Source: Phycicoccus sp. Soil802
GTDB taxonomy: Bacteria > Actinomycetota > Actinomycetes > Actinomycetales > Dermatophilaceae
DNA: 64,000 nucleotides
Assembly (NCBI RefSeq): GCF_001429605.1
Contig: NZ_LMSS01000007.1
Coordinates: 310,528-374,527 of the forward strand
Direction: 5' to 3'
Shown here in pieces: positions 32,490 through 60,556 of this stretch. The notes under the pieces are model-generated. The model was not told the DNA's origin. It saw only the letters and a list, made by a program, of their open reading frames with translations, and searched no databases. The stretch's first letter is position 1. Each line of letters begins with the position of its first letter. The position numbers and the translations under genes are program-made.

Positions 32490-32684
32490 CAAACAAGCGC
32501 CGCGTTTCCGCAGGTCAGCAGGCTGAAGATGAGGCCGTGAATCTTCCTGCGTCGGCTACCCCTGCCGGATAATGACAGAGCACCTCTAGCCGGCGTTTCC
32601 GCTGGTCAGGGGCCCTCTGCTGCACTGGGCGACAGGTGAAGGATTCGAACCTTCGAAGCTTTCGCGATGGATTTCCAGACCGAG
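32490..32684 (+). repeat. tRNA-derived dispersed repeat, copy A
   Basis: This is the most degenerate of three related copies (others near 51.1-51.4 and 60.3-60.6 kb, same orientation). It keeps the box CGCGTTTCCGCAGGTCAG at its start, a second related box near 32595, and the tRNA-like core GGTGAAGGATTCGAACC (32636-32652) followed by TTCGAAGCTTTCGCGA. The core is the complement of a tRNA-Tyr-like 3' half with T-arm and long variable arm. The anticodon position reads GGA rather than GUA, and no matching acceptor half follows. Spurious frames cross the repeat. The flanks 32434-32489 and 32685-32865 hold nothing recognisable. Confidence 0.75.
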
Positions 32685-32865
32685 GGATGCCACCGCACTG
32701 CGGCGGACCCGGACCGGGCCATGCCTCCACGGTGAACGCCGAAGTCTCGTTCTGACCCGGCACACCGGTTATGGGCTGGACCTCACCGGTCGGAACCCGC
32801 CCTCCTCAAGCACGGTGCGGGACGCAACAACGACACATCGGCCCTTTGCCTTGGAACATGGCCGC

Positions 32866-33957
32866 TCATGCCTGAATGTCTACGGCCGCATCCGCGATCT
32901 TGTCGCGAATGGCGTCCGAGACATTGCGGGTGTCATCGGTCCCACCGATGTCGCGGGTCCGGGGACCGTCCCGCAGCACCGTGTCGATAGCCCGGTTGAT
33001 GCCGCTGGCTGCGGTTGTCTCGCCGAGGAAGTCGAGCATGAGCGCGCCGGTGGCGATCTGCCCCACTGGATTGGCGATGCCGCGTCCGGCGATGTCCGGT
33101 GCTGAACCGTGCACTGGTTCGAACATGGAGGGATATCGCCGCTCTGGGTTGAGGTTTCCGCTGGCTGCGAGCCCGATCGATCCCACGCACGCGGCCGCCA
33201 GATCCGACAGGATGTCGCCGAAGAGGTTGGACGCGACCACGACATCGAACTGCTGAGGGCGCGTCACCATCGCAGCGGCGAACGCATCGATCAGCAGGCT
33301 CCGTAGTTCCACCCCGGGTTGCTCGGCCACGGTCTGGGCCACGACCTCGTCCCAGAACGGCATCGAGTGGATGATCCCGTTGGACTTCGTGGCCGAGGTC
33401 AGCTGCCCGCGCCGCGTCGCGGCCAGCTCGGCTGCATAGCGTGCTACCCGCGTCGTTCCCTGCCTGGTGAAGATCGCCTCCTGCACGGCGAGCTCTGCGT
33501 CGGTGCCGCGCCCGAACCGGCCACCCACTTCCGAGTACTCGCCCTCCACGTTCTCCCGGACGATCACCATGTCGGTGCCCTCGGGGTTGGCGAGCGGGCT
33601 GGACACGCCCGGCACATGCCGCACCGGTCGAAGGTTGACGCACTGCTGGAAACCGCGGCGAATCGGAATCAGCAGCCCCCACAGGGTGACGTGGTCGGGA
33701 ATGTCCGGTGCCCCGACTGCCCCGAAGAACACGGCATCGTGCTGCGCCAGTTGGTCGAGGCCGTCGGAGGGCATCATCGTCCCGTGCTCGCGGTAGTACT
33801 CGGAGCCCCAGGGATAGGGAGTCCAGTCGACCGTGAACCCGTGACGTACGCCGGCGGCGTCGATGACCTCGGTGGCCAGTGGGACCACCTCGGTCCCGAT
33901 CCCGTCGCCGGCGATGACGGCGATCGAGTGTCGCCTGGTGCTGGTGTCGTTGCTCAT
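32866..33957 (-). CDS. Tartrate / D-malate dehydrogenase (decarboxylating) family
   Basis: A 363-residue NAD-dependent beta-decarboxylating dehydrogenase of the isopropylmalate/isocitrate family, closest in layout to tartrate and D-malate dehydrogenases. Visible are IAVIAGDGIGTEV at the N-terminus, IVRENVEGEYSEVGGR, TSATKSNGI with the catalytic Lys, VVASNLFGDILSDLAA with metal Asp residues, and FEPVHGSAPDIAGRGIANP. The ATG at 33957 overlaps the upstream dehydrogenase stop (ATGA); GTG at 33963 is possible. Together with an aldehyde dehydrogenase and aminotransferase it forms a minus-strand operon, so the substrate may be a hydroxyacid made in that pathway. Confidence 0.85.
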   Translation of the reverse strand: MSNDTSTRRHSIAVIAGDGIGTEVVPLATEVIDAAGVRHGFTVDWTPYPWGSEYYREHGTMMPSDGLDQLAQHDAVFFGAVGAPDIPDHVTLWGLLIPIRRGFQQCVNLRPVRHVPGVSSPLANPEGTDMVIVRENVEGEYSEVGGRFGRGTDAELAVQEAIFTRQGTTRVARYAAELAATRRGQLTSATKSNGIIHSMPFWDEVVAQTVAEQPGVELRSLLIDAFAAAMVTRPQQFDVVVASNLFGDILSDLAAACVGSIGLAASGNLNPERRYPSMFEPVHGSAPDIAGRGIANPVGQIATGALMLDFLGETTAASGINRAIDTVLRDGPRTRDIGGTDDTRNVSDAIRDKIADAAVDIQA

Positions 33958-35459
33958 GACCACCCCATGGCGATGCCGATGTACTTCAGCTCGAGGAACT
34001 CGTCGATGCCGACGCTGCCACCCTCGCGGCCCAGCCCGGACTCCTTGACCCCGCCGAAGGGCGCGGCCGGGTTGGACACAACGCCCTGGTTGAGCCCGAC
34101 CATGCCGGACTCCATCGCCTCGCCGACCCGCAACGCACGTCGCAGGTCGTTGGTGTAGACGTAGGCAACCAATCCGTACGGGGTGTCGTTGGCGACTGCC
34201 ACGACCTCTGCCTCGGTGCTGAACGGGGTGAGCGGGGCCACCGGGCCGAAGATCTCCTCGCTCGCCATCCGCGCCTGCGGCGACACCCCGGTGAGCACGG
34301 TCGGTGCGTAGAAGTACCCGGCACGCTCACCCGCACCACCACCCGTCAGGACGGTCGCACCACGGTCCACCGCGTCAGCCACAAGCTCGGCGACCTTTCT
34401 CTGGGCCGCATCGTCGATCAGCGGTCCGACCGTGACACCCTCCTCAGTCCCGCGCCCGACCTTGAGGGCGGCCATCTTCTCGGAGAGCCGAGCACCGAAC
34501 TCTTCGATCACGGACTCGTGGACGTAGATGCGGTTCGCGGCCGTGCATGCCTCCCCCATGTTGCGCATCTTGGCGGCCATGGCACCGGCCACCGCCTCGT
34601 CGAGGTCGGCGTCCTCGAACACGATGAACGGAGCGTTTCCGCCCAGCTCCATGGATGTGCGCAGGACCTTGTCGGCGCACTGCTCCAGCAGGATCTTGCC
34701 GACCTTGGTGGAGCCGGTGAAGGACAGCTTGCGCGCCAGACCCGAACGGATCAGCGGCTCCACCACCTCGTTCGCTCGCATGCAGGTCACGATGTTCACG
34801 ACCCCGTCGGGCAGTCCAGCCTCGGCGAGGATGGCGCCGAGGGCCAGCATCGACAAGGGTGTCTGGGGCGCAGGCTTGATGACGCTGGTGCAGCCCGCGG
34901 CGATCGCCGGCCCGATCTTGCGCGTTCCCATCGCCATCGGGAAGTTCCACGGGGTGATCAGCAGACAGGGGCCGACCGGTTGCCTGGTCACCAGGAACCG
35001 CGCATCCCCGGCCGGCGATGTTTGGTAGCCGCCGTCGATCCGTAGTGCCTCACCGGCGAAGTGCCGAAGGAACTCCGCGGCATACGCGATCTCCCCCCTG
35101 GCTTCGGCCACCGGTTTGCCCATCTCCAGGGTCATCAGCAGCGCCAGGTCGTCGATCCGCTCGTGCAGCAGGTCGAAAGCCCGGTTCAGGATGTCTGCCC
35201 GTTCACGCGGGCTGGTCCGGGCGAACGACGACTGCGCAGCCACGGCGGCATCCAGTGCGCGGCGACCGTCCGCGGGGGTTGCGTCAGCGACGGCACACAA
35301 CGGCTCGCCGGTCGAGGGGTCGATCACGTCGAAGGTCGCGCCATCCTCGGAGTCGACCCAGCGCCCGTCAATGAGCAGCTGCTTGGGGACTGCCTTGATG
35401 AGGCGCGACTCACGCTCGGTCAGCGCTGAGGTGGCCGGTGCTGCGGCGTGTGTGCTCAT
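33954..35459 (-). CDS. NAD(P)-dependent aldehyde dehydrogenase, succinate-semialdehyde type
   Basis: A 501-residue aldehyde dehydrogenase. The cofactor region shows LITPWNFPMAMGTRKIGPA, the general-base Glu is in MELGGNAPFIVFEDADLDEA and the nucleophile Cys is in MGEACTAANRIYVHE. The C-terminus carries PFGGVKESGLGREGG, typical of GabD-like enzymes. The ATG at 35459 follows GGAGAGGTTCTC and gives the standard length. It sits between the aminotransferase and the decarboxylating dehydrogenase and probably oxidises the semialdehyde made by the aminotransferase. Confidence 0.88.
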   Translation of the reverse strand: MSTHAAAPATSALTERESRLIKAVPKQLLIDGRWVDSEDGATFDVIDPSTGEPLCAVADATPADGRRALDAAVAAQSSFARTSPRERADILNRAFDLLHERIDDLALLMTLEMGKPVAEARGEIAYAAEFLRHFAGEALRIDGGYQTSPAGDARFLVTRQPVGPCLLITPWNFPMAMGTRKIGPAIAAGCTSVIKPAPQTPLSMLALGAILAEAGLPDGVVNIVTCMRANEVVEPLIRSGLARKLSFTGSTKVGKILLEQCADKVLRTSMELGGNAPFIVFEDADLDEAVAGAMAAKMRNMGEACTAANRIYVHESVIEEFGARLSEKMAALKVGRGTEEGVTVGPLIDDAAQRKVAELVADAVDRGATVLTGGGAGERAGYFYAPTVLTGVSPQARMASEEIFGPVAPLTPFSTEAEVVAVANDTPYGLVAYVYTNDLRRALRVGEAMESGMVGLNQGVVSNPAAPFGGVKESGLGREGGSVGIDEFLELKYIGIAMGWS

Positions 35460-35581
35460 GAGAACCTCTCCAGGATCCAGGTGATGTGGGGCTGTTTCCG
35501 ACTTTCGATGCCGCGCTGGCGAGGCGAGCCCCTTGGCGCTGTCCGTCGGTCGGGGAAGGGGCGCGGTGGTCGCGCCGGCTG

Positions 35582-36856
35582 TCAACGTGGCCCGTCGTAG
35601 GACGCCAGCGCACCGTCGATCGCGTCGACGATCTGCGCCACGTCATCGTCGGTGCAGACGAACGGCGGACAGATCTGGAGCGTGTTGTCGTGGATGGTCC
35701 TGATCAGGACGCCAGACTCCGCACAGGCGTCGATGATCGGGTCGGCGTCCACCTCGGCGCGGAGCTGGACACCGGCCATGAAGCCGGCGCCCGCACGCAC
35801 GTCGACGACCAGCTCGCTGTTGCGCAGTGGCTTCACCATCAGCTCCAGGACAGCCTCCAGCCGGCCGGCCTCCTCGACGAGGGACTCCTCGGCCAGCACC
35901 TCGAGGTTCGCCATGGCGACGACACAGGCAGTGGCGTGCCCGGAGTAGGTGAGTCCATGGCGGAAGATGGGCGCGTCCGGCCCGGCAAAGAAGCGGTCCG
36001 CCACACGGGGGGCGACCAGGACACCTCCCAGCGGCGCGTAGCCCGAAGTGATGCCCTTCGCCACCGTCACGATGTCCGGCACGATGCCCCAGCGCTGGGA
36101 GGCGAACATGTGCCCCGTCCGGCCGAAGCCCGTGATGACCTCGTCGGCGATGAACAGGATGTCGTGCTGCCGGCACAATGCCTCGAGCCCCTCGAGGTAG
36201 CCCTCGGCAGGCCCGATCACTCCCCCCGTGCCGATGACCGGCTCGGCGATGATGGCTGCGATGTTCTCGGGCCCCAGCTCCAGGACCGAGCGGCCGACGT
36301 CCTGGAGGTCGTTCGTGGAGATCCGGGCGGTCTCGGGCACCAGGGAGTCGGCTCCGTAACCCTCCCGGTTGTAGCTGAGACCAGCGACGCTGGTCCCGAA
36401 GGCGTGCAGCCCGTGGTAGGCATTGTGGCGGCTAAGGATGAGCTTCTTGCCCGGCCGGCCTTCCAGCTGCCAGTGCCGCCGCGCCAGCTTGCAGGCGAGG
36501 TCGACCGAGTCAGAGCCGCCACTGGTGAGCATCACCTTGGCACCCGCCATCGGCGCCTCGGCCGCGAGCCAGTCCGCCAACTGAAGAGCGGGTTCGTTCA
36601 CTGTCCGTCCGAAGGTGTGATAGGTCTCCAGCTTCGTCATCTGGTCGTATGCCGCGCGAGCGAGCCGTTCGCGGCCGTGCCCGATGTTGGCGTGCCAGAG
36701 ACTCGAGGTCGCGTCGATGAGACGGTCACCGGTCGACGTCTCCAGCCAGACTCCCTTGCCGCCAGTGATGACCAGCCTCCGCTTCCGCGCTGTGGGCATG
36801 TGAGCCTGCGGGTTCCAGTACGCATCGCCGGGGGTGATTTCTCGTACGCCGATCAT
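35582..36856 (-). CDS. Class III aminotransferase (omega-amino acid type)
   Basis: A 424-residue PLP enzyme. Family features are LIDATSSLWHANIGHGRERL, LTSGGSDSVDLACKLARRHW, FIADEVITGFGRTG with the PLP-ring Asp and VTVAKGITSGYAPLGG with the Schiff-base lysine, followed by HGLTYSGHATAC. It would transfer an omega-amino group to pyruvate or oxoglutarate, giving a semialdehyde for the next gene. The ATG at 36856 is used; longer starts run into the operator. It is divergent from a GntR regulator. Confidence 0.87.
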   Translation of the reverse strand: MIGVREITPGDAYWNPQAHMPTARKRRLVITGGKGVWLETSTGDRLIDATSSLWHANIGHGRERLARAAYDQMTKLETYHTFGRTVNEPALQLADWLAAEAPMAGAKVMLTSGGSDSVDLACKLARRHWQLEGRPGKKLILSRHNAYHGLHAFGTSVAGLSYNREGYGADSLVPETARISTNDLQDVGRSVLELGPENIAAIIAEPVIGTGGVIGPAEGYLEGLEALCRQHDILFIADEVITGFGRTGHMFASQRWGIVPDIVTVAKGITSGYAPLGGVLVAPRVADRFFAGPDAPIFRHGLTYSGHATACVVAMANLEVLAEESLVEEAGRLEAVLELMVKPLRNSELVVDVRAGAGFMAGVQLRAEVDADPIIDACAESGVLIRTIHDNTLQICPPFVCTDDDVAQIVDAIDGALASYDGPR

Positions 36857-36861
36857 GAAGT

Positions 36862-36876
36862 AACTGTAGTACAGTT
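36862..36876. promoter_or_regulatory. GntR operator palindrome
   Basis: AACTGTAGTACAGTT is a perfect inverted repeat of 7 bases around one G, in the 63-base divergent spacer between the aminotransferase and a GntR gene. A further AACTG half-site follows at once. Position and size suit a FadR/FCD-type GntR dimer. Confidence 0.65.
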
Positions 36877-36919
36877 GAACTGAACTGCACAAGCCCACGA
36901 TTTCGCTTATGATGGCCCC

Positions 36920-37624
36920 ATGTCAGCACTGGATGGCCTTGTGATTCACCGACAGACCGCCGCCCAGCAGGTGGCCAATGGCCTGGCCTCCCGGATCCTC
37001 AGCGGCGCGTTCGCCGCCGGGGCACCACTGCGGGAGAGCGCAATCGCTGCAGAGCTCGGCGTCGCTCGGAACACCGTGCGCGAAGCCGTCCGGATCCTCG
37101 AGCTGAGCGGGCTCGTACGTCACGAGGTCAACCGCGGCGCGGTGGTGATCTCGCCCACCCCGGAAAGGGTGGAGGCGCTGTACGCCGCCCGCGAGCGACT
37201 CGAGACCGCGGCGGCGGCGCGCCCCGCGAGCCCGGACCACATCGCCAAGCTCAGGAGCGCCTACCAGCGACTGGAACAGGCGGCGTCAACGCATGAACCA
37301 GCGCAGATCGTCGAAGTGGACCTGGAGTTCCACTCCGCCATCGTCGGAATGCTCGACAGCAGCAGGCTAGACATCTTCTACACAGAGCTCATGGTCGAGC
37401 TGCGGTTCTACCTGATGGTGCTGTCGGTCGAAGATCGCGAGTTCGAGCGTCCCCAAGACTTGCTGGTCGAGCACAAGGACATCCTCGACGCCATCGAGTC
37501 CGGCGACAGCGGTAAGGCGGTGGAAGCGGTTCGCTCGCACATCGTCCGCAATGCGGCACGTGTGGCGCAGATTGTCGCCGCGCGGGGGGACGGCTCCGGA
37601 GACTCTGGGGCTGCCGCACGCTGA
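36920..37624 (+). CDS. GntR-family regulator with FCD domain
   Basis: A 234-residue regulator: N-terminal winged helix (LRESAIAAELGVARNTVREA, about residues 40-60) and a C-terminal FCD ligand domain with EVDLEFHSAIVGM, whose Asp/His residues usually bind a metal. It is divergent from the aminotransferase, aldehyde dehydrogenase and dehydrogenase operon and probably represses it via the palindrome at 36862-36876. It is convergent with the SolA-like oxidase gene, 26 bases away. Confidence 0.87.
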   Translation: MSALDGLVIHRQTAAQQVANGLASRILSGAFAAGAPLRESAIAAELGVARNTVREAVRILELSGLVRHEVNRGAVVISPTPERVEALYAARERLETAAAARPASPDHIAKLRSAYQRLEQAASTHEPAQIVEVDLEFHSAIVGMLDSSRLDIFYTELMVELRFYLMVLSVEDREFERPQDLLVEHKDILDAIESGDSGKAVEAVRSHIVRNAARVAQIVAARGDGSGDSGAAAR

Positions 37625-37650
37625 TCGGCGTCCTCATGGCGCGCCGAGCC

Positions 37651-38784
37651 TCAGACGAGGCGCTCGGGCCGGACGAATTCGAGACCCTCGACCCCTGCGG
37701 GGCGGCCCAGCGCCTCGGAGGCGGCGATCGACCCGAATGCCGAGGCCATCTTGAATCCAGCACCGGAGAAGCCCGTTGCCAGATAGATCCGGTCGCTGCC
37801 CGGGACAAAACCCACGAGGGGCGTGGCATCACTCGTGTACAGATCCGGGTACGCATCGGAGCGCACGATGCAGGGAATCAGCCCAGGCAGGAACTGCGCA
37901 ACCGTCTCCTCGGACTCAGCGATCTCCGCTGCGGTGAGCGCACGATCGACACTGTTTGCGTTGGGTGCCGGCTGCCCCCGGCCATCCAGCGTCGCCTTGA
38001 CGCTCGCTCCATCGAGGGTGGGCGCCCCATAGAGGGAGCGTTGACCGGTGATCCGGATGAAGATTGGAAACCTTTCCGGCTCGAACTCCTTGGGGTCGCG
38101 CGCCGCGAACCAAGAGAGGTAGATCCGCCAGGTCTGCACTTGACCCTGCAGCGAAGATGGGAGCAGGTCGCGCGACCACGCGCCGGAGGACACGATGACC
38201 CGCTCGAACACCCAGGTGTCGGCGTCCGTGCTGATCCGGACGCCGCCCGGCACCTCGCGGATCTCGCGGATCGGCGTACCGGTCACCACGCTGGCCCCGT
38301 TGTTCTTCGCCGCGTCGATCGCTGACAGGACAGCGCGATCCGTGCGCAAGAAGCCTCCCTCGGGATCCAAGATCCCGCATTCGCCCGCAGCGAGGCGGTG
38401 TTGCGGATAGCGACGCTCCATCTCGGCGTGGTCGAGGATCTCGTGCGGCGCACCCGTCCGCTTGATCGACTCGAGCAGTGCGGGGATGTAGCTGCCGTCG
38501 ATCTCCCCGATCGAGAGGCCACCGCACTGGGTCAGGATGGTCTGACCGGACTGCTGCTCGAGCTCCCGCCACAGATGCTGGGCGACCCGGAGCACCGGGT
38601 AGTAGCTCCCCTCCCCGCGATAGGTCATCCGAAACAGCCGGGTGTCGCCGCCGACGGCGCTACGCGGGTGGGCGGGAGACGCGGCTTCCAAACCGACGAC
38701 GGATCGCGACGTCTGGGACGCCTGCCAGAGCGCCATGCTGCCGATGCTGCCGAGGCCGATGACGGCCAGCTGTCCGTCCGACAT
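37651..38784 (-). CDS. SolA/MSOX-like FAD amine oxidase lacking the covalent-flavin Cys
   Basis: A 377-residue FAD protein of the monomeric sarcosine oxidase / N-methyltryptophan oxidase family, with the dinucleotide motif VIGLGSIGSMALWQAS at the N-terminus and the C-terminal ATGFSGAGFKMASAFG. In characterised MSOX-type oxidases a Cys in a CxYT context carries FAD covalently; here the aligned segment is DAYPDLYTSDATP, with Asp in its place, so flavin is probably held non-covalently. It directly follows the ABC ATPase with no spacer and is the last gene of that operon, suggesting that the imported compound is a secondary or N-methyl amino acid. Confidence 0.82.
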   Translation of the reverse strand: MSDGQLAVIGLGSIGSMALWQASQTSRSVVGLEAASPAHPRSAVGGDTRLFRMTYRGEGSYYPVLRVAQHLWRELEQQSGQTILTQCGGLSIGEIDGSYIPALLESIKRTGAPHEILDHAEMERRYPQHRLAAGECGILDPEGGFLRTDRAVLSAIDAAKNNGASVVTGTPIREIREVPGGVRISTDADTWVFERVIVSSGAWSRDLLPSSLQGQVQTWRIYLSWFAARDPKEFEPERFPIFIRITGQRSLYGAPTLDGASVKATLDGRGQPAPNANSVDRALTAAEIAESEETVAQFLPGLIPCIVRSDAYPDLYTSDATPLVGFVPGSDRIYLATGFSGAGFKMASAFGSIAASEALGRPAGVEGLEFVRPERLV

Positions 38785-39615
38785 CTACACCAACACCTTC
38801 TCCAGGAACTTCTGGGTACGGGGCTCCTTGGGGTTGCAGATGACGTTCTTGGATGGTCCTTGTTCGACAACGAGGCCGCCGTCCATGAACATCACCGTGT
38901 CGGCGACCTCCTTGGCGAAGCCCATCTCGTGGGTGGCCACCATCATGGTCATGCCGCGTTCGGCGAGGTCCTTCATCACGGCGAGGACCTCCCCGACACG
39001 TTCGGGGTCCAGGGCGCTGGTCGGCTCGTCGAACAGCATCACCTGCGGGTCCATCGCCAACGCGCGGGCGATGGCCACGCGTTGCTGCTGACCTCCAGAC
39101 ATCTGCCAGGGGTAGTGCTCGCCGTGGCCCTCGAGCCCGACGCTGGCCAGCAGCGAGTCGGCCCGCTGCGACGCCTCGCGTTTCGGCGTCCCCTTCACCA
39201 GCACCGGCCCCGACATGACGTTCTCGCGGGCGGTCATGTTGGGGAAGAGGTTGAACTGCTGGAACACCATCCCGATCCGAGTGCGTTGGGCGGCAAGCTC
39301 CTTGCGGGGCAGCGCCTGGTAGGCGTTGTCGGTCTCGCGGAAGCCGAGGTCCTCGCCGTTGACGCGCAGGACCCCGCGGTCGACCTCCTCCAACCCGTTG
39401 ACGCACCGCAGCAGGGTCGACTTGCCCGACCCGCTCGGGCCGATCAGGCAGACGATCTCACCGCACTTGACGTCCAGGTCGATCCGGTCCAGGACCACCC
39501 GGTCGCCGAAGGACTTGCGCAGGCCGCGCGCGTACACGGTGCCCACGCCGCCGGTCACGCCGCCGGTCACGCTGTTGGCCGGGTTGTTGGTCACGTCGTT
39601 GCTCACGTCGGTCAT
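38785..39615 (-). CDS. Polar amino acid ABC transporter ATP-binding protein
   Basis: A 276-residue ATPase of the GlnQ/HisP type with the Walker [15 protein letters not shown]-loop in [13 protein letters not shown], signature LSGG-equivalent [15 protein letters not shown], Walker [15 protein letters not shown] and the switch His in VATHEMGFA. The first 25 residues are a Thr/Val/Asn-rich extension with [10 protein letters not shown] repeats that is not part of the fold. It overlaps the permease gene by four bases. Confidence 0.92.
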
Positions 39616-40562
39616 CTGGCTTCACCACCCACGGTTGCGTCCAGCGGGAGCTGGGGCTGTGCGGCGCCGGTGGCGACGCGGGACTTGGAGCGGGAGTACT
39701 TCTTCTCGATCAGGGACTGGGGGTAGCTCAGGGCGAGGGTCATGAGCAGGTACCACAGGCAGGCCACGATCAGCAGCGGGATGGTCTGGTAGGTGCGCGC
39801 ATAGATCAGCTGGACGCTCTGCAGCAGCTCAGCCACCCCGAGGACGCTGACCAGCGACGTCTCCTTGAACATGCCGATCACCTGGTTGCCGACGGCGGGG
39901 ATCACGGTCGGCATCGACTGCGGGATGATGATCCGCCACAGCTTCGTCCGACCGCTCATGCCGAGGGAGTCCGCGGCCTCGAGCTGCCCCTTGTCCACCG
40001 AGGCGAACCCGCCGCGGATGATCTCGGCCAAGTAAGCCGCCACGTTCATCGACAGCCCGACGATGGCCGCCGTGGTGGCACTCATCAACGCGTTCACGTC
40101 CACCGCCTGAGAGACATCGGTGAACGGGATCCCGATCCTGATGTTCGGGTAGAGCGCGGCGATGTTGAACCAGAAGATCAGCTGGACCAGCACCGGGGTG
40201 CCACGGAAGAACGTGATGTAGCCCGACGCGAGCAACATCAGGGGCCGCACCTTCGAGACCCGCAGGATCGCGATGAACATGGCCAGGATGGTGCCGAAGA
40301 ACATCGTCAACGCGGTCAGCACCAGCGTCAGGACCAGGCCCTTGAGCACCGTGGGGGCGGTGAAGTACTGCGCCACCACGCCCCACTGGTAGTTCTCGTT
40401 CGTCGCCAGCGTGTGTGCCACGCCGATGACGATGAGCAGACACAGCGCCCACGCGGCGTACTCCAGGAGTCCTCGTTGGTGCACCCGCGGCTTCTCGGTG
40501 GTCTTCACCCGTCTCATCTCCTCGGTCGGGGCCCGCTGTCCAAGACTGATGCCCGACGCCAC
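39612..40562 (-). CDS. Polar amino acid ABC transporter permease
   Basis: A 316-residue membrane protein with an N-terminal cytoplasmic stretch, a first segment at about residues 35-52 and a core of about five more segments. The family motif for ATPase contact is [20 protein letters not shown], and [19 protein letters not shown] is typical of HisM/GlnP permeases. It is a single permease and so probably works as a homodimer. The stop overlaps the ATPase start (ATGA). Confidence 0.9.
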
Positions 40563-40566
40563 GGCG

Positions 40567-53955: not shown

Positions 53956-53963
53956 GCTCGCTG

Positions 53964-53992
53964 GGGCGGGCGGCAATGACAGCCGCCCGCCC
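53964..53992 (+). terminator. Intercistronic hairpin after the binding-protein gene
   Basis: GGGCGGGCGGC (53964-53974) and GCCGCCCGCCC (53982-53992) form a perfect 11-base stem with a 7-base loop, 8 bases after the stop. No T-run follows. Placed between a binding protein and its permeases, it probably protects the upstream mRNA or partly ends transcription so that binding protein is made in excess. Confidence 0.75.
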
Positions 53993-54020
53993 TCATCGAG
54001 CCCCTCACTCTGGAGTCCTG

Positions 54021-54956
54021 ATGACCACCACAGTCGCCCCGCGGACCACCACTTCACGCAGTAGGACCCGACCGCCATCCAAGGCGCACACGCGCTCCTG
54101 GGTCGGATTCAGCTTCACTGCTCCGGCCATCGTCATGCTGCTCGTGTTCTTCTTCGTGCCGCTGATCCTGTGCTTCCTGCTGGCCTTCACGAACGCTCGG
54201 CTCATCTCCGGTGAGCCCACCAGAATCACGGGGCTGGACAACTTCCAACGACTGTTCTCCGATCCGCTGTTCTGGAAGTCATTGCGCAACACGGCCTACT
54301 TCGCGGTGGTCGTCGTGCCGATGCAGTCCGCCTTGGCACTGCTGCTCGCGATCCTGGTGAACGGTCAGGGACGGGCGAAGAACTTCTTCCGCACCCTGTA
54401 CTTCGTGCCCGTGGTGACATCGATCGTCGTCGTGTCGATCCTGTGGCGCTTCATGTACGCGAGCGACGGTCTCATCAACAGCATGCTGCAGCTGGTGACG
54501 TTCAACGCGGTGCAGGGCACCGACTGGTTGAGCAACACCTCGACCGCCATGCCGGCGGTCATCCTGATGTCGATCTGGCAGGCCGTCGGATTCCACATGG
54601 TGATCTGGCTTGCCGGCCTGCAGACCATCCCCATGGACCTGTACGAGGCGGCCTCCCTCGACGGTGCCGGCCGGTGGGACCAGTTCCGCTTCGTCACCTG
54701 GCCGGGCCTCAAAAACACCCGCACGTTCATTCTCGTCACCATCACCATTGCTGCGCTCAGCCTCTTCGCCCAGGTCCAGGTCATGACCAGCGGTGGCCCG
54801 CTCGACTCGACCTCGACCGTCGTCTACCAAGCTGTCCGCGCCGGCTACACGCAGCAGGCCACCGGCTACGCATCCGCGATCTCCCTGGTCTTCTTCGCAC
54901 TGGTGTTGACCGTCTCGCTCATCCAACAGTTCCTCACCCGAGACAAGGACGCCTGA
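54021..54956 (+). CDS. Sugar ABC transporter permease, MalF type
   Basis: A 311-residue inner-membrane permease with six segments after a basic cytoplasmic N-terminus. The ATPase-contact loop is EAASLDGAGRWDQFRFVTWP (EAA motif). The ATG at 54021 has GGAG six bases upstream. It ends in a TGATG overlap with the second permease. The operon lacks its own ATPase, so a shared MsiK-like ATPase encoded elsewhere is expected, as usual in actinobacteria. Confidence 0.92.
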   Translation: MTTTVAPRTTTSRSRTRPPSKAHTRSWVGFSFTAPAIVMLLVFFFVPLILCFLLAFTNARLISGEPTRITGLDNFQRLFSDPLFWKSLRNTAYFAVVVVPMQSALALLLAILVNGQGRAKNFFRTLYFVPVVTSIVVVSILWRFMYASDGLINSMLQLVTFNAVQGTDWLSNTSTAMPAVILMSIWQAVGFHMVIWLAGLQTIPMDLYEAASLDGAGRWDQFRFVTWPGLKNTRTFILVTITIAALSLFAQVQVMTSGGPLDSTSTVVYQAVRAGYTQQATGYASAISLVFFALVLTVSLIQQFLTRDKDA

Positions 54957-55879
54957 TGACCACGCTCACACACAAGGCCGCCTCCCGCCGAGCCTCGAAG
55001 CCGCGCCGAAAGATCACCCGAGGCACGGTCGGCCTGAACGTCGCTCGCCTCGTTCTCGGACTGTTCTTCGCATTCCCGATCGTCTTCATGCTGGTGTCCT
55101 CGCTGAAGCCGGACGAGCAGATCTTCGGCGATCTCGGCTCCCTCAAGGCGTTCCTCCCCGTCGGACACCTGTCTCTCGACAACTACCGCACGACCTTGGA
55201 CACCGTCCCGGCCTTGCGGTTCCTGCTCAACTCGATCGTGGTCTCGGGAGTGACCGTCGCCCTCGGGTTGTTCATCAACAGCCTGGCTGCCTTCGGCTTG
55301 TCCCGGCTGCAGTGGAAGGGTCGCAAGATCGTGCTCGCCCTGGTGCTCGCAACCCTGGTCGTGCCGTTCGAGACCTTCGCACTGCCCCTGCTTTGGTGGG
55401 TCAACCACCTGCCCTGGCTCACGCACGACGGCTTCACCCTGCTGTGGACGGAGGGCTGGCTGGATACCTACCGAGTGCAGATCCTGCCGTTCGTTGCCAA
55501 CGCGTTCTCGATCTACCTCTTCTACTCCTACTTCCAGAGCATCCCCAAGGAGCTCGACGAGGCAGCCATCGTTGACGGGGCCGGATGGTTCCGCATCTAC
55601 CGCAGCATCATCATGCCTCTCTCCGGACCCGCTATCGCCTCGGTCTCGATCCTGACGTTCCTCCCCGCCTGGAACTCCTACCTGTGGCCCCTCATGGTGG
55701 TGCAGACCGAGGAATTGCGGCCCGTCATGCTCGGTGTCAGCTACTTCTTCCAGCTCAACGTCGAGTGGGGCCCGATGATGGCCTACTCCAGCATGATCAC
55801 GATCCCCGTCCTCGCGCTCTTCTTGGCCTTCCAGCGAAACTTCATCGGCAGCATTGCCGCGAGCGGCGTGAAGGGATGA
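54956..55879 (+). CDS. Sugar ABC transporter permease, MalG type
   Basis: A 307-residue permease with six segments. The EAA motif is DEAAIVDGAGWFRIYRSIIM, and FLPAWNSYLWPLMVVQTEE is a MalG landmark. The ATG at 54956 overlaps the upstream stop, and its own stop overlaps the GH32 start (ATGA), so the whole cassette is translationally coupled. Confidence 0.92.
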   Translation: MTTLTHKAASRRASKPRRKITRGTVGLNVARLVLGLFFAFPIVFMLVSSLKPDEQIFGDLGSLKAFLPVGHLSLDNYRTTLDTVPALRFLLNSIVVSGVTVALGLFINSLAAFGLSRLQWKGRKIVLALVLATLVVPFETFALPLLWWVNHLPWLTHDGFTLLWTEGWLDTYRVQILPFVANAFSIYLFYSYFQSIPKELDEAAIVDGAGWFRIYRSIIMPLSGPAIASVSILTFLPAWNSYLWPLMVVQTEELRPVMLGVSYFFQLNVEWGPMMAYSSMITIPVLALFLAFQRNFIGSIAASGVKG

Positions 55880-57150
55880 CCTCGACAGCGCCCCGGGCGA
55901 CCGAAACCCGGCCGACCGTCCACTTCACCCCACCGGTGGGGTGGATGAACGACCCCCACGGGATCTACTGGCTCGACGGTGTCTACCACCTGTACTTCCA
56001 GCACGTGCCGGACGCGGTGGAGTGGCAGACCGGGATCTCCTGGGGCCATGCCACCAGTAAGGATCTCGTCCACTGGCGCCCAGCGGCCCCAGTCCTTGCA
56101 CCCGGCGAGGGCGACGAGGGCATCTGGTCAGGCAGCGCGGTGATCGATGACGACGGCCGGCCGGTGCTCTTCTACACCTCGGCCGGCGGCGAGGACGTGG
56201 ACCTCGGAAGGATCCGCTCCGCGCGGTTGTCACAGTCCGGCGATCAGTGGGTCAAGGGTCCAGTCGTGGTTGAGCCTGTGGACACAGCGACGCGCGTGTT
56301 TCGGGACCCGACAGTGTTCCGCGACGGCGACCACTGGACCATGGTCGTTGGCAGCGGCCGGTCCGACGGCACCGCGAACGCGGAGGTGTTCTCGTCCTCG
56401 GACCTCGCGAGCTGGACACCCGTCGGGATCCTGGCTTCGCGAAGCACCCGTTCACAGCACCCCTGGACGGGCGCTGCCTGGGAGTGCCCGCAAGTGATCA
56501 TCGGCGACGGTGATGCACCAGACATGCTCGTGGTGTCGATCTGGGACGACCACAAGCCGCACGATGTGGCAGCGGCGACGGGGACCTACGCCGACGGCCG
56601 GTTCGTCGCGCGTCACTGGCGCTTGCTCTCAGCCGGCGCTGGCCACTTCGCCGCCTCGGCGTTCACCGACGTCGAGGGACGGTCCTGCCTGATCTTCTGG
56701 ATACGAGGCATCACCGACCCCGGTCGGTGGGCCGGTGCCTTGAGCCTGCCGTACGTCATCACCGCAGACGGCGACGACGTCCGTCTGGAGCCTCACCCTG
56801 CGGTCGCGGCGGCGCGCCTCCCCCCTGACGCCGGCCACGTCGGCGCCGGCCGAGCCATCGACGTGGAATGGCGGCCCCACCAGGAGGACAGGCTGCAACT
56901 GGTCACGCCCGAAGGCGAGGTGCAGGCATCGGTCCACGTCGAAGGATGGACTGTTACGGTCGCCGTTCGCGACGCCGCGTCGGTCACGGTCAGCCACCAC
57001 AGCGAGTGCCTGCGGATCATCGCCGACGCCCAGGTCCTCGAGGTCGTCGCCGACGGCGGCTTGGTCGGGTTGCCCCTTCCGGCATCCAAGACTGGACTAC
57101 AGCCGCACACTGGCGATCCGAGCCGGGTCGCCTGCTGGCACCTCAGTTGA
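55876..57150 (+). CDS. Cytoplasmic GH32 fructosidase (invertase/fructanase)
   Basis: A 424-residue GH32 enzyme without signal peptide. The catalytic triad is present: nucleophile Asp in GWMNDPHGIYW, stabilising Asp in VFRDPTVFRDG and acid/base Glu in GAAWECPQVII. A short beta-sandwich follows the propeller. It is the last gene of the importer operon and would hydrolyse imported sucrose or fructo-oligosaccharides. No phosphotransferase system is linked, so a free-sugar substrate is more likely than sucrose-6-phosphate. Confidence 0.9.
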   Translation: MTSTAPRATETRPTVHFTPPVGWMNDPHGIYWLDGVYHLYFQHVPDAVEWQTGISWGHATSKDLVHWRPAAPVLAPGEGDEGIWSGSAVIDDDGRPVLFYTSAGGEDVDLGRIRSARLSQSGDQWVKGPVVVEPVDTATRVFRDPTVFRDGDHWTMVVGSGRSDGTANAEVFSSSDLASWTPVGILASRSTRSQHPWTGAAWECPQVIIGDGDAPDMLVVSIWDDHKPHDVAAATGTYADGRFVARHWRLLSAGAGHFAASAFTDVEGRSCLIFWIRGITDPGRWAGALSLPYVITADGDDVRLEPHPAVAAARLPPDAGHVGAGRAIDVEWRPHQEDRLQLVTPEGEVQASVHVEGWTVTVAVRDAASVTVSHHSECLRIIADAQVLEVVADGGLVGLPLPASKTGLQPHTGDPSRVACWHLS

Positions 57151-57237
57151 CTTCCCCACGACGCCCGGCATGGAGCAGTCATGCTTGGCCCGAAACGCGG
57201 TGTATCTGACTCCGAAACCACCCTTCAAACTCGCTAC

Positions 57238-57251
57238 TGACAACGTTGTCA
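57238..57251. promoter_or_regulatory. Palindromic LacI-type operator upstream of the levanase
   Basis: TGACAACGTTGTCA is a perfect 14-base palindrome with the central CG typical of LacI/GalR sites, 15 bases before the levanase ATG and next to its ribosome binding site CGGAGG (57255-57260). Its outer bases differ from the GAAACGTTTC site of the importer, so a second LacI-type protein may bind here. Confidence 0.7.
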
Positions 57252-57266
57252 TACCGGAGGTTAGTC

Positions 57267-59801
57267 ATGGCTTTCAGCACTCGTTCAGCTCCGCGCCGGC
57301 CGCTCGCCGTCGTCCTGCTGGTCCTCGCGGTCCTTGCCGCGCTCGGGGTGGCGCCCGCGGCGGCGGACACACCGCAACACCGACCCGCCTACCACTTCAG
57401 CCCCGCGAAGAACTGGATCAACGACCCCAATGGGCTCGTCTTCTCCAAGGGTGTCTACCACCTCTTCTTCCAGCACAACCCGCTCGGCAACGGCTGGGGC
57501 AACATGTCCTGGGGCCACGCGACGAGCACCGACCTCGTCCACTGGGAGGAGCAACCGGTCGCCATCCCGTTCGACGCCAACGAGGGAGTGTTCTCCGGCT
57601 CGGTCGTCATCGACAAGACCAACAGCTCCGGCTTCGGCACGGTGACGAACCCCCCACTCGTGGCGATGTACACCAGCGCCTACACGGCCGCCAGCGGCCG
57701 CGATGGCATTCAGGCACAGTCGCTGGCGTACTCGACCGACGACGGTCAGACGTGGACCAAGTACTCGGGCAACCCGGTCATCGACATCGGATCGCGCGAG
57801 TTCCGCGACCCCAAGGTCTTCTGGTACGAGCCCGCCCAGGAGTGGCGGATGGTGTCGGTGATCGCCAACGAGCACAAGGTCCTCATCTGGCGCTCCGCCA
57901 ACCTCAAGCAGTGGACGCGCCTGTCCGAGTTCGGCCCTCGCGACGCCATCGGCGGTGCGTGGGAGTGCCCGGACCTCTTCCCCCTGGCGGTCGACGGCGA
58001 CCCGGAGAACGTCAAGTGGGTCATGATCGTCAGCCTCAACCCGGGCGGGATCGCCGGCGGCTCGGGCACCCAGTACTTCGTCGGTGACTTCGACGGCACG
58101 ACCTTCACGCCCGACGGGCCGGCGAGCTACCAGCCTCCCACCGGCACGCTCCTGCAGGGGTTCGAGAACGGGTATGCCGGGTGGACCCCGACCGGGACCG
58201 CCTTCGGGTCCGAGCCGGCATCCGGTTCCCTGCCGGGCCAGCAGCCCGTCACCGGTTACGTGGGCGAGCACCTGGTCAACAGCTTCATCGACTTCGACGG
58301 CGCCCAGGGCGAGCTGACCTCCCCGCAGTTCACGATCAACCAGAGGTACCTCAACTTCCTCATCGGCGGCGGCCACCACGAGGCAGTTGCCGGCGCGACG
58401 CAGGGTGACCCTGGCGGCGAGGTCTTCACCGACTTCGAGAACCTCGACCCCGCGACGCACCTGCCCGCCGGTTGGAGTGCGACAGGGGACTTCGTCGGCT
58501 ACGGCGCGACCAGCTCGGGCCTGCCCTACCACCAGGGTGACAAGGTGCTCGACACGTGCGTCGTGCCCGACAAGTGTGACCTCGCCGTGGGCACCTTCGT
58601 GTCGCCCGAGTTCACCGTGACCAAGGGCTACGTCAACCTCCTCATCGCAGGAGGCACGCACCCGGCCGGGACGAGTGGCCCGACCGTCGTCGAGCTCGTC
58701 TCGGGTGGACAGGTCGTCGGGTCGGTGACCGGCAACAACTCCGGTGAGATGGACTGGCGCCACATCGACGCCCGGGCAGTGGTGGGCAAGCAGGCCCGGA
58801 TCGTCGTCCGGGACGACCACAGCGGCGGCGACTGGGGACACCTCATGGTGGACGACATCCGGTTCTCCGACACGGCTGCCGGCCCGCGCGACACCCAGAC
58901 GACCGTCAACCTCGTCGTCGGCGGCGAGGTCGTGCGGTCGAGCACGGGATCGGACAGCGAGGCCCTCGACTGGGCCGCGTGGGACCTCAATGACCTGCAG
59001 GGCAGGACCGCGCAGATCAGGGTGGTCGACCACAGCTCCGGCGGGTGGGGCCACATCCTCGCCGACCAGTTCATGCTCGCGCCGGCACCGGCCAAGAGCG
59101 GGACCGATCGTGCCAGCTGGGTCGACTTCGGACGCGACAACTACGCCGGCGTGACCTTCAACGGGCTGCCCGACAACCAGCGCACCACCATCAGCTGGAT
59201 GAACAACTGGCAGTACGCCGGCGACGTGCCCACCGACCCGTGGCGCGGCCAGATGACGATGCCCCGCAGGCTGTCCCTGGTCACCACCGAGGCAGGACCG
59301 CGCCTCCGCCAGACGCCCGTCCCGGGAGTCGATGCAGTCACCGTGAACCGTGACAAGCAGCAGGCCAAGCAGCGTTCGGTCGCGGCCGGTGTGACGCCGA
59401 CCGGGCTCGCGGCGAGCGTGGCACGGGTCGAGGTCCGGGTCGCCCTGGGCTCGGCGTCCGAGGCGGGCGTCGTGCTGCGACGCAGCGCCGACGGCGCCGT
59501 GGGCACCAGGATCGGAGTCCGTCGCGACGGCACTCTGGTCGTCGACCGGACCCGCAGCGGCAACGTCACGTTCAACCCCCTCTTCCCCAGCGTCGAGGAG
59601 GCGCCGGTGACGGTGCGCGACGGGGAGGTGACCTTCACGGCATACCTCGACCGCAGCTCGGTCGAGGTGCTGGCCGAGGACGGTCAGATCTCTGTCACCG
59701 ACCTCATCTACCCGCCGACCGCGGCGACGGGTGTCGCTGCCTACGCGGTGGGCGGGACTGCCAACGCGGTCGACATCAAGGTGACACCCATCCGCCCCTG
59801 A
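57267..59801 (+). CDS. Secreted GH32 levanase with inserted carbohydrate-binding-like modules
   Basis: An 844-residue secreted protein. The signal peptide covers about residues 1-33, cut after APAAAD. The propeller starts with KNWINDPNGLVF (nucleophile Asp about residue 53), followed by the stabilising Asp in REFRDPKVFWY and acid/base Glu in GGAWECPDLFP. After about residue 290 a 320-residue insertion with two or three beta-rich repeats (LLQGFENGYAGW, FTDFENLDPATHLPAGW, and twin GWGH/DWGH motifs) interrupts the propeller, which resumes with DFGRDNYAGVTFNGLPDNQR. A C-terminal beta-sandwich ends the protein. The modules probably bind fructan. A strong terminator follows. Confidence 0.9.
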   Translation: MAFSTRSAPRRPLAVVLLVLAVLAALGVAPAAADTPQHRPAYHFSPAKNWINDPNGLVFSKGVYHLFFQHNPLGNGWGNMSWGHATSTDLVHWEEQPVAIPFDANEGVFSGSVVIDKTNSSGFGTVTNPPLVAMYTSAYTAASGRDGIQAQSLAYSTDDGQTWTKYSGNPVIDIGSREFRDPKVFWYEPAQEWRMVSVIANEHKVLIWRSANLKQWTRLSEFGPRDAIGGAWECPDLFPLAVDGDPENVKWVMIVSLNPGGIAGGSGTQYFVGDFDGTTFTPDGPASYQPPTGTLLQGFENGYAGWTPTGTAFGSEPASGSLPGQQPVTGYVGEHLVNSFIDFDGAQGELTSPQFTINQRYLNFLIGGGHHEAVAGATQGDPGGEVFTDFENLDPATHLPAGWSATGDFVGYGATSSGLPYHQGDKVLDTCVVPDKCDLAVGTFVSPEFTVTKGYVNLLIAGGTHPAGTSGPTVVELVSGGQVVGSVTGNNSGEMDWRHIDARAVVGKQARIVVRDDHSGGDWGHLMVDDIRFSDTAAGPRDTQTTVNLVVGGEVVRSSTGSDSEALDWAAWDLNDLQGRTAQIRVVDHSSGGWGHILADQFMLAPAPAKSGTDRASWVDFGRDNYAGVTFNGLPDNQRTTISWMNNWQYAGDVPTDPWRGQMTMPRRLSLVTTEAGPRLRQTPVPGVDAVTVNRDKQQAKQRSVAAGVTPTGLAASVARVEVRVALGSASEAGVVLRRSADGAVGTRIGVRRDGTLVVDRTRSGNVTFNPLFPSVEEAPVTVRDGEVTFTAYLDRSSVEVLAEDGQISVTDLIYPPTAATGVAAYAVGGTANAVDIKVTPIRP

Positions 59802-59808
59802 CCTGGTC

Positions 59809-59849
59809 GGGGCGGCCAGTGCAGTCCCAGCAGCTGCACTGGCCGCCCC
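59809..59849 (+). terminator. Perfect 16-bp terminator hairpin after the levanase
   Basis: GGGGCGGCCAGTGCAG (59809-59824) pairs base for base with CTGCACTGGCCGCCCC (59834-59849) around a 9-base loop, beginning 7 bases after the stop codon. No T-run is present, but the stem is the strongest in the window. Confidence 0.85.
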
Positions 59850-59979
59850 ACCCGTCCACGACTCATCGCCAGGCAGGTACTGACGAGGTCCGGTCTCCCC
59901 GTCGCCGTGGTTTGAGCGCAAGGAGCGGGCCGCAGCCAGGTAGTCCTGTACTCCGTGGAGCCCTTAGGCCAGTAACCAG

Positions 59980-60156
59980 ATGCGCGGAGAAGTTGACGTT
60001 GAACGCGTCTCAATAGAGCTGACAGCCCTGCTGGACGGGCTGCAGGTCCAGTGGCTGTCCTCCCCCGACCTCGTCGACATGCCGTCTCAGTTTCGAGTCA
60101 GAGTCGATGAGCTGCTCAGGGAACCGTTGAACATGGCGCTTCCACATCCTGGCTAG
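59980..60156 (+). pseudogene. TetR-family regulator, C-terminal fragment
   Basis: An ATG-started frame of 58 codons encodes VERVSIELTALLDGLQVQWL followed by DLVDMPSQFRVRVDELL, a typical end of TetR ligand-binding domains (ALxDGLQxQWLLDPxxVDM). An in-frame stop lies at 59965-59967, so the DNA-binding part is absent. A TetR N-terminal fragment in the same orientation lies at 25268-25357. Confidence 0.65.
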
Positions 60157-60255
60157 GTGCTGACCGTGCGTCTTGGTTCGGTGGGCAATTCGCGCCCCCA
60201 CGGGTTCGTGCAGGTCACCGGCGCAGGAGTCCGACCATCACGGCCTTCGGTTCCC

Positions 60256-60556
60256 GGCTTCCCCACCCATTCGCAGGAGCCACGATCGGCCAACGCGTTT
60301 GCGCACGTCAGAGCTTTGACGATGGGGCCCGCAAATCTCCCGGCCTCAAATACCCCTAGCGGGTACGGACGGAGGGCGCCGGACTCGCGTTTCCGCAGGT
60401 CAGGCGCCCTCCATTGCACTGGGTGGCAGGTGAAGGATTCGAACCTTCGAAGCTTTCGCGAGGGATTTACAGAACGGCGTATGCCGACCGCTCACCTGCG
60501 GTTTCCCGGCTTGCCAGCGAAGTTCGCCGCGAATTCGCCACAGACTCTCGACGACA
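60256..60556 (+). repeat. tRNA-derived dispersed repeat, copy C
   Basis: The best-preserved copy. The left part has CAACGCGTTTGCGCACGTCAG and TACCCCTAGCGGGTAC. A perfect 10-base hairpin, GGAGGGCGCC (60371-60380) with GGCGCCCTCC (60403-60412), encloses GTTTCCGCAGGTCAG. On the minus strand 60425-60500 is tRNA-like: an acceptor of six to seven pairs (GCAGGT/ACCTGC), a 5-pair T-stem GAAGG/CCTTC around TTCGAAT, variable arm CGCGAAAGCTTCG and a Tyr-type loop CTGTAAA with anticodon GUA. The anticodon stem does not pair and the D-arm is poor, so it is not a working tRNA. It lies 450 bases after the levanase terminator. Confidence 0.83.

Follow-up and report, generated by a model that had tools for sequence, protein, structure and literature searches.

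The 64,000-nucleotide window analysed here, positions 310,528 to 374,527 of contig NZ_LMSS01000007.1 (C7) of Phycicoccus sp. Soil802, contains three repeats that resemble the 3' half of a tRNA-Tyr gene and stand between catabolic operons. What are these repeats, and how did they come to lie there? An initial annotation took them to be either att-like scars left by modular integration or a tRNA-derived mobile or regulatory element.

Number and location of the repeats

The three copies are present where the initial annotation put them, all on one strand, and form a family over 157 nt in which two members are 64% and 77% identical to the third, taken as reference. A search of the whole 4.29-Mb genome with the copy at 60250–60560 of the window returned six places (E value of the best match other than itself, 1.9e-64), all on C7 and in a single orientation, and the similarity among the copies is far above chance. 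All six places are at or behind tRNA-Tyr. The genome holds six tRNA-Tyr 3' halves on the same strand of C7, namely the intact gene (C7:487916–487998, 113 kb past the window end) and five scars located 90–145 kb downstream of it, which are named by their C7 position in kb (c343, c361, c370, c385 and c397). The three scars in the window are the most distant ones; three further copies, the tRNA-Tyr gene among them, lie outside it, and a remnant without a core is found at C7:415.5 kb. The minus-strand tRNA-Tyr 3' half reported earlier is thus borne out, with the intact gene on the same contig.

The alignment of the copies reaches well past the tRNA core, and no scatter over unrelated sites was seen. 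None of the partial copies was called as a tRNA, and Rfam at the gathering threshold gave zero matches within the window. The 40-nt core pattern had no exact match in viral contigs, and in phage and plasmid records (48 and 7, respectively) only the tRNA-Tyr-like part was matched, with a best query cover of 23% and 17%.

Anatomy of the repeats

Each scar is bipartite. The tRNA-Tyr sequence from the anticodon loop to the 3' end (the core), together with the terminator, lies between a shared 'end arm' and a 'begin arm'. In the window, all of these features are on the minus strand, and the terminator hairpins, taken from folds, have approximate limits. The begin arms are of type B and were matched by model R1, which was built from six type B begin-arm sequences, those of c343, c361 and c370 among them. 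Scar c343 comprises a begin arm at 32449–32571 (R1 match C7:342976–343098, E value 1.3e-16), in which the dyad is decayed, box 2 is present and the arm pair is lost, a tRNA-Tyr-type terminator hairpin at 32578–32623, a core at 32628–32675 with 3 edits over 48 nt, and a decayed end arm at 32676–32787 that has 15–19 of 35 matches with other scars. The begin arm of c361 (51012–51187; R1 match C7:361539–361714) carries the dyad, boxes 2 and 3 and an arm pair (C7:361609), and is followed by the hairpin (51192–51238), the core (51243–51290; 3 edits in 48) and an end arm (51291–51415). Scar c370 has the begin arm at 60191–60365 (R1 match C7:370718–370892) with an arm pair at C7:370786, +188 from the core marker, the hairpin at 60370–60417, the core at 60422–60469 with a single edit in 48, and the end arm at 60470–60597, whose arm pair lies at −76 from the core marker.

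The similarity to tRNA-Tyr ends at the anticodon loop. Upstream of this junction the five scars match the tRNA gene at 8–13 of 35 positions (random pairs, 9.8 ± 2.7), whereas the DNA there is common to four of the five scars, with 25–28 of 35 matches between scars. The cores carry 0, 1, 1, 3 and 3 edits across the five scars. The counts for core plus terminator (5, 5, 7, 8 and 6) do not match this gradient, which counts against the explanation that we prefer below.

The internal hairpin noted earlier is the tRNA-Tyr terminator, which in each of the six copies has a long stem and a loop of four bases; folds of the 76-nt terminator segments have energies of −31.8 to −41.3 kcal/mol in five copies and −45.2 kcal/mol in c370. 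Of the CCGCAGGTCAG boxes that had been described, box 1 is the stem of this terminator, and boxes 2 and 3 follow at 91–95-bp steps where present. Box 1 was considered as an integrase arm site and dropped, since it is the terminator stem and also occurs behind tRNA-Met, tRNA-Arg and tRNA-Leu genes. The reported dyad is real and reads TACCC-N4-GGGGTA; the 32.6-kb copy has it decayed to TATCC. The two arms of the repeat assort independently, such that the same end arm occurs with a type A or a type B begin arm.

Arm pairs and integrase

The arm-pair pattern SGAA-N5-GG-SGAA has seven minus-strand matches in 278.6 kb, 7/7 of them at these sites, and one plus-strand match. The end-arm pair is positioned at −76 from the core marker in c397, c385, c370 and genome G025. 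The type A pair is at +154 at the tRNA-Tyr of the Soil802 genome and in the integrase-bearing genomes G090 and G088, and at +153 in G026 and G071. Counting against the explanation preferred below, just 12 of the 149 distinct cores in the fetched loci have the strict pattern, and other spacings are equally frequent overall.

Type A begin arms of relatives adjoin a tyrosine integrase gene, the 3' end of which faces the core. In Soil802 only a C-terminal integrase piece is found beside tRNA-Tyr and the begin arm (C7:487581–487742; 54 residues, 514–567, with 78% identity). It is the only integrase-like ORF in C7:310.5–494.4 kb; profile PF00589 gave zero matches in the array, and the families listed for 119 of its ~131 mechanical ORFs include no integrase, transposase or transfer gene. 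The Soil802 site has the arms of a tRNA-Tyr-directed element of the L118 integrase family and lacks a full integrase gene next to the core; a cognate full-length integrase was not found in the genome. Because no complete integrase-bearing element stands at this site, we infer the agent from relatives. Integrases of the L118 family probably made the scars, and the arms are their putative binding sites.

Modules and the tRNA-Tyr locus in relatives

The modules are catabolic operons with a G+C content of 65.0–67.0%, compared with 72.3 and 71.9% in the flanks. Modules E1 to E5 are bounded by cores with arms, the exceptions being the decayed c343 end arm and the coreless 415.5-kb remnant, and the scanned cargo differs from module to module. 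Module E5 (32676–51242) encodes dehydrogenases, a class-III aminotransferase, an ABC transporter, FAD oxidoreductases, a GntR regulator and a GH2 enzyme, and module E4 (51291–60421) a LacI regulator, sugar ABC proteins and two GH32 enzymes; no integrase was found in either. Module E3 starts at 60470, runs to the window end at 64000 and continues to C7:385.8 kb; its cargo includes an epimerase, a GH36 enzyme, an ABC transporter, and LacI and AraC regulators.

We looked for signs that E4 moves as one unit and found none, which counts against the explanation preferred below; only single genes are common between species, and seven genomes of genus g18 resemble E4 only in the GH32 gene. In one genome (G006) the GH32 gene follows the terminator and the type B arm is absent. 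This gene is 92.4% identical to that of Soil802, compared with 83.5% for the flank (4,961 bp); identity also reaches 93.0% in the 687 bp immediately beside tRNA-Tyr, and the excess in GH32 is thus only weak evidence of transfer.

The next conserved chromosomal gene lies 0.17–9.4 kb after tRNA-Tyr in seven congeners versus 228 kb in Soil802. The comparison for empty sites that the initial annotation had proposed therefore shows the 228-kb insert to be absent, or at most 9.4 kb long, in these congeners, and over the eight congeneric genomes, Soil802 included, the insert behind tRNA-Tyr ranges from 0.17 to 228 kb, as in an additive flexible island. The block at C7 250–260 kb is colinear with the congeners. 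A gene at C7:324.3 kb, 58–65% identical to a gene of the congeners, was rejected as the island end; it is on the other strand relative to tRNA-Tyr. Two or more cores occur in 18 of the 178 core-bearing genomes of the family.

The type B end

The type B end is a non-coding stretch of ~280 bp composed of the terminator, the TACCC-N4-GGGGTA dyad, CTGACCTGC boxes at 91–95-bp steps, the arm pair and a GGGGGTATG motif. A nucleotide search with the type B arm was weak, matching 2 of 185 other genomes with E values of 1.3e-7 and 9.7e-4; thus, model R1 was used instead. R1 at an E value of 0.01 matched 94 of 186 genomes, and matches above 1e-6 were treated as noise because the calibration is rough and the genomes are G+C-rich. 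The model identifies ten type B ends in 6 of 186 genomes of the family Dermatophilaceae and four genera, four of the ten lying outside its training set. At 1e-5, 396 genomes from the order yielded Soil802, G025 and one partial match (4.3e-6) in another family.

Behind type B ends there are sugar operons in Soil802 and a cobalamin-synthesis block in G091, and inspection of the seven ends with enough contig behind them revealed no integrase. One tentative proposal, which we consider rather improbable, sees in type B the left end of a family of non-autonomous 'operon cassettes'. These would never have an integrase of their own, and an operon situated between such an end and an end arm would be moved into tRNA-Tyr by the integrase of another element. 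Like integron cassettes, they would borrow an integrase. This conserved, integrase-less left end is possibly a new feature.

Origin of the row

The repeats are very probably attachment-site scars, formed as a tyrosine integrase brought about serial, site-specific accretion at tRNA-Tyr and left integrase-less, CIME-like metabolic modules. The confinement of all copies to one strand and contig with the intact gene at one end, the arm pairs at fixed positions, the failure to find an integrase in the array and the lower G+C content of the modules speak for this. The att-like reading of the initial annotation gains support from the junction at the anticodon loop and the likeness of the scars upstream of it, and further from the arms beside integrase genes in relatives, the C-terminal integrase piece and the lack of the insert in congeners. 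As expected for CIMEs and accretion, att sites flank the modules, in which no integrase and, among the families listed, no transfer gene was found. Elements with a tyrosine integrase, their own or one acting in trans, would have entered the tRNA-Tyr 3' half one by one. Each integration would have remade the tRNA from the core copy of the incoming element and pushed the older element from the gene with a hybrid site, consisting of the newer end arm, the core and the older begin arm. Later, the integrase would have been lost from the tRNA-proximal element, leaving the C-terminal piece. We infer this order of integration events; at least five core-bounded modules, and probably more, lie between tRNA-Tyr and the chromosome.

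It is possible, if unlikely, that homologous recombination between att repeats (cassette exchange) was the main process that built the row or now reshapes it, site-specific integration being only initial. The repeats of ~150–400 bp are long enough to recombine, the genome has no detected cognate full-length integrase, and species have only single module genes in common; however, the integrase-less copies retain exact arm-pair positions, which crossing-over alone does not need, and the begin arm types differ in adjacent modules. A self-copying dispersed repeat derived from tRNA-Tyr, SINE-like or MITE-like and located between operons by chance, would accommodate the tRNA-like centre and the ~400 bp common to several copies. 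It is very improbable given that all six places share a single strand and contig and are located 3' of the intact tRNA-Tyr gene, that no copy was found elsewhere in the genome and that end and begin arms assort independently. The last two findings likewise argue against the tRNA-derived mobile or regulatory element of the initial annotation. That the tRNA-Tyr region was duplicated as a segment and then decayed, as the tandem orientation of the copies on one side of the gene might suggest, is scarcely credible, as no scar includes the 5' half of the tRNA or the DNA upstream of it, the scanned module cargo is unlike and the insert is missing in congeners.

Relation to known systems

Serial accretion at tRNA-Tyr would yield an island of a kind already known from CIME arrays and additive flexible islands; the row here is long and has lost its own integrase. 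In the portion of the CIME literature drawn on here, site-specific accretion involves loss of the integration genes, retention of attL/attR and tandem placement behind the target gene (PMC5704250). The CIMEs described there are decayed ICEs/IMEs in pairs or small tandems, whereas Soil802 has five core-bounded modules plus remnants, all scanned cargo is metabolic and the type B begin arm has no integrase seen behind it. The Dehalococcoides ssrA islands, as excerpted, stand in tandem in the 100 kb downstream of a single RNA gene; direct repeats border them, their cargo is catabolic and 15 of the islands lack an integration module (PMC3146451). The Soil802 island is likewise tandem, repeat-bounded, catabolic and behind one RNA gene. 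However, the Dehalococcoides islands use ssrA, a 20-bp repeat and serine recombinases, in contrast to the tRNA-Tyr target, the ~48-nt core with terminator and arms, and the tyrosine integrase family of Soil802.

Additive flexible genomic islands with tRNA-fragment repeats occur in Ca. Actinomarinales and Methylophilaceae, one of which is an actinobacterial group (PMC7771536, PMC10872708). Their tRNAs and cargo are unlike those of Soil802, and the excerpts of these sources describe neither arm anatomy nor a cognate integrase. Tycheposons, in the account excerpted from PMC10872708, are similarly tRNA-bounded with metabolic cargo and a tyrosine recombinase; in Soil802 the tRNA boundary is present and the integrase gene is gone. 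Actinomycete integrative and conjugative elements (AICE) place a tyrosine integrase at tRNA 3' ends, with tandem pairs at tRNA-Lys and tRNA-Arg in the part of PMC3218068 used here. The Soil802 array differs from the AICE set of integrase, Rep and FtsK-like Tra in that the integrase is absent and no Rep/Tra family is among those listed for the scanned ORFs.

Many islands pose the question of how plain metabolic operons travel when they have no mobility genes of their own; a type B end, if it is a true cassette end free of an integrase, would point to one such route. The locus documents the anatomy of an additive island based on a tRNA gene, with arm positions and a probable integrase family, and illustrates how an integrase is reduced to its C-terminal piece at a site that persists. 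It suggests how operons for the catabolism of fructan, galactosides, sugar acids and other compounds come to stand next to each other in one strain.

Repeat copies on contig C7

A search of the 4.29-Mb host genome with one copy of the tRNA-Tyr repeat identified six places, all on contig C7 (the window is C7:310528–374527) and all in one orientation. One of them is the intact tRNA-Tyr(GTA) gene (C7:487916–487998, minus strand). The five partial copies, termed scars c397, c385, c370, c361 and c343, have the 5′ ends of their cores at ~ 397.6, 385.9, 371.0, 361.8 and 343.2 kb of C7, and none was called as a tRNA by tRNA prediction. The three same-orientation copies reported in the initial annotation are real and correctly placed; they are the last three scars (371.0, 361.8 and 343.2 kb). 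A remnant that lacks the core is located at C7 415.5 kb. ARAGORN also reported a plus-strand tRNA of unknown type (window 44995–45084), whose anticodon would have four bases; it lies inside long ORFs and is probably false.

Anatomy of the scars

Along the tRNA strand, each scar comprises an end arm, the core (the 3′ part of tRNA-Tyr, starting at the anticodon loop), the terminator hairpin of the tRNA and a begin arm. Upstream of the core, 8–13 of 35 bases agree with the tRNA gene in the five scars, which is the chance level (9.8 ± 2.7 matches, with a maximum of 20 among 2000 random pairs). The same 35 bases of c397, c385, c370 and c361 exhibit 25–28 mutual matches, and those of c343 match these four at 15–19 positions.

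Two types of begin arm were distinguished. Behind the tRNA gene, c397 and c385 the arm is of type A; behind c370, c361 and c343 (partial) it is of type B, which also occurs in the 415.5-kb remnant. Type B contains the dyad TACCC-N4-GGGGTA, further CTGACCTGC boxes in 91–95-bp steps and an arm pair. This pair, SGAA-N5-GG-SGAA, a direct repeat 11 bp apart, is present in type A, type B and the end arm. Over 278.6 kb it occurs seven times on the minus strand, each time at one of these sites, and once on the plus strand. The totals are unremarkable (other spacings yield 0 to 9, both strands summed); it is the positions that are special. The strict end-arm pair is located at −76 from the core marker in c397, c385, c370 and the family genome G025. 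The type A pair is at +154 behind tRNA-Tyr here and in the integrase-bearing genomes G090 and G088, at +153 in G026 and G071 and at +151 in G200, and the type B pair is at +188 in c370. Within −200 to +330, the strict pattern was found at 12 of the 149 distinct cores of the fetched loci, with 13 matches on the tRNA strand versus 2 on the opposite strand.

The pattern GTTTCCGCAGGTCAG, allowing at most one mismatch, has 18 matches in the genome, compared with 0 for the reversed pattern. Its sites include C7:128273, C2:353529, C7:1984 and C6:3162; some are tRNA terminators or adjoin an integrase gene, and at several others no tRNA lies within 1.5 kb.

Insertion into the chromosome

In congeners, C7:488–499 kb has a colinear counterpart on the 5′ side of tRNA-Tyr over the extent fetched. 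The conserved gene that comes first on the 3′ side, as defined by mechanical gene calls, starts 171 bp (G010), 0.96 kb (G007), 1.8 kb (G003), 2.0 kb (G009), 3.8 kb (G008), 4.9 kb (G004) or 9.4 kb (G005) from the core; for G001, G002 and G006, the fetched stretches of 17.9, 8.5 and 6.4 kb, respectively, did not include it. In the host, the conserved 3′ block is colinear at C7:250–260 kb, 228 kb from tRNA-Tyr, which places the whole window inside one insertion. The G+C content is 65.0–67.0% in the modules between scars, 67.7–70.3% in the scar-free inner part, and 72.3% and 71.9% in the flanks.

Integrase and its remnant

A Pfam PF00589 search detected eight tyrosine recombinases in the host genome, none inside the array. 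In core-bearing loci of other species, for example Intrasporangium calvum PheN6 (L118) and Segeticoccus rhizosphaerae (L137), integrase genes adjoin the core with their 3′ ends facing it. The I. calvum integrase used as a query matched 37 of 186 family genomes (E 1e-6), many distantly. Among 30 loci inspected from this search, a core match of at least 46 nt was found nearby in 12, only a 17-nt match in 4 and none in 14. The integrase is long in five of these 12 core-adjacent loci (G090, G088, G071, G192 and G026), spanning two frames in G026 and with one internal stop counted in each of G088, G071 and G192; the remaining seven (G000, G195, G178, G196, G200, G096 and G205) retain C-terminal pieces. 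In six of these seven, the match breaks off 267–428 bp from the core 3′ end; in G205 it does so at 671 bp. The conserved begin arm is about as long as this gap, and the site, rather than the integrase protein, appears to have been kept.

The same query yielded in the host a C-terminal piece and one distant match; a full-length cognate integrase was not detected in the genome. The piece (C7:487581–487742) faces tRNA-Tyr and covers residues 514–567 with 78% identity; the search tool extends it to residues 487–567 with one stop. The integrase-bearing element of G088 (L241:1978–18429) also holds a DnaG-like primase and an HTH_17 protein, and the autonomous relative may therefore be phage- or satellite-like.

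Distribution of the type B end

Model R1 of the type B begin arm, built from six rows, identified ten ends below 1e-6 in 6 of 186 genomes from four genera. Four ends are outside the training set (G091, two in G203, and G204), and all four adjoin a whole or partial core. In G091 (C23; L277, L278) a 31-kb block comes after the type B end; it encodes a CbiM transporter and cobalamin-synthesis proteins, and a core is located near its distal end. An integrase of the L118 family is on another contig. No integrase was found behind the seven type B ends examined, four in the host and those of G025, G091 and G204 (3.4 kb only). At the G015 end and the two G203 ends, the contig terminates within ~ 0.6 kb. 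The type B end is a feature that may deserve more attention.

Cargo of the modules

Module E5 encodes dehydrogenases, an aminotransferase, an ABC transporter, FAD oxidoreductases and a GH2 enzyme; E4 encodes LacI, sugar ABC proteins and two GH32 enzymes; E3 encodes an epimerase, GH36, an ABC transporter, LacI and AraC; and E2 encodes an SMP-30/gluconolactonase protein, a PfkB kinase, a KDPG-type aldolase, a mandelate-racemase-type enzyme, an SDR and a sugar transporter. The outer 90 kb contains oxidoreductases, sugar genes and acyl-CoA genes. Beside tRNA-Tyr and outside the window, C7:480–487 kb (L012:5660–12306) encodes a radical-SAM protein, an FMN dehydrogenase, a glycosyltransferase and a TetR regulator with an MftR C-terminal domain, a set that looks, from the Pfam name, like a mycofactocin-type cluster. 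A 208-residue ORF adjoining c361 (window 50394–51017) matches only the DmpG communication domain and is possibly a gene fragment.

Of ~ 131 mechanical ORFs in C7:340.7–487.9 kb, 119 were scanned: 59 were run singly against Pfam, and the other 60 were run together against PHROGs and Pfam. This set of 60 matched 14 PHROGs families, 9 without description, and, at 1e-20, 36 Pfam families, 25 of them listed. Integrase and transposase families are absent from the matches listed for the 119 ORFs; small ones could be hidden by the 1e-20 limit and by the capped listing.

Relatives

A core match was found in 178 of 186 family genomes, with more than one match in 18 of these 178. The count scored five candidates per genome, so that the host shows five and really has six; five are likewise seen in G205, whose assembly is fragmented and 68% complete. 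The GH32 gene that stands directly behind an att copy in G006 is 92.4% identical to the host gene over 2,624 bp. Because the first 687 bp on the 5′ side of tRNA-Tyr in G006 are themselves 93.0% identical to the host, with 83.5% identity across the 4,961 bp that follow, recent transfer of the GH32 gene is only suggested by these identities. Seven genomes of genus g18 have the GH32 gene at 78–85% protein identity without the rest of E4. A nar-like block (window 15131–23947; C7:325.7–334.5 kb) shares 81–94% protein identity with a block in G011, of another genus; the G011 block begins ~ 1 kb behind the tRNA-Tyr of that genome. Non-metabolic cargo occurs as well: the tRNA-Tyr modules of G025 (L068:5930–10597) hold an AbiEii-like protein with an HTH protein, and a HINT/Tox-REase-7 protein.

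Discussion

The anticodon loop of a tRNA gene may serve tyrosine integrases as the place of crossover, and for SLP1 of Streptomyces the gene used is that of tRNA-Tyr. The most probable history here is recombination, by a tyrosine integrase, between a circular element and the anticodon-loop region of tRNA-Tyr; each integration would restore the tRNA and push older elements outwards. From the nearest to the farthest scar, the cores differ from the tRNA by 0, 1, 1, 3 and 3 edits of 48, which fits a nearest-newest order; core plus terminator (5, 5, 7, 8 and 6 edits of 85) fits less well. The upstream junction, the arms, the integrase remnant and the 228-kb insertion bear out the first reading of the initial annotation, att-like scars of modular integration.

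Comparable systems have been published: CIMEs and site-specific accretion (PMC5704250), Dehalococcoides ssrA islands, with 15 members without an integration module (PMC3146451), tRNA-repeat cassettes of Ca. Actinomarinales (PMC7771536), islands of Methylophilaceae (PMC10872708), additive islands of Alteromonas and AICE tandems (PMC3218068). No description of this array was found in the open-licence literature searched on SLP1/tRNA-Tyr, Intrasporangiaceae genomic islands and Actinobacteria tRNA-Tyr islands. The array is a long new example of an already known kind. Having lost its integrase, it is probably fixed in place unless a related one reaches the cell.
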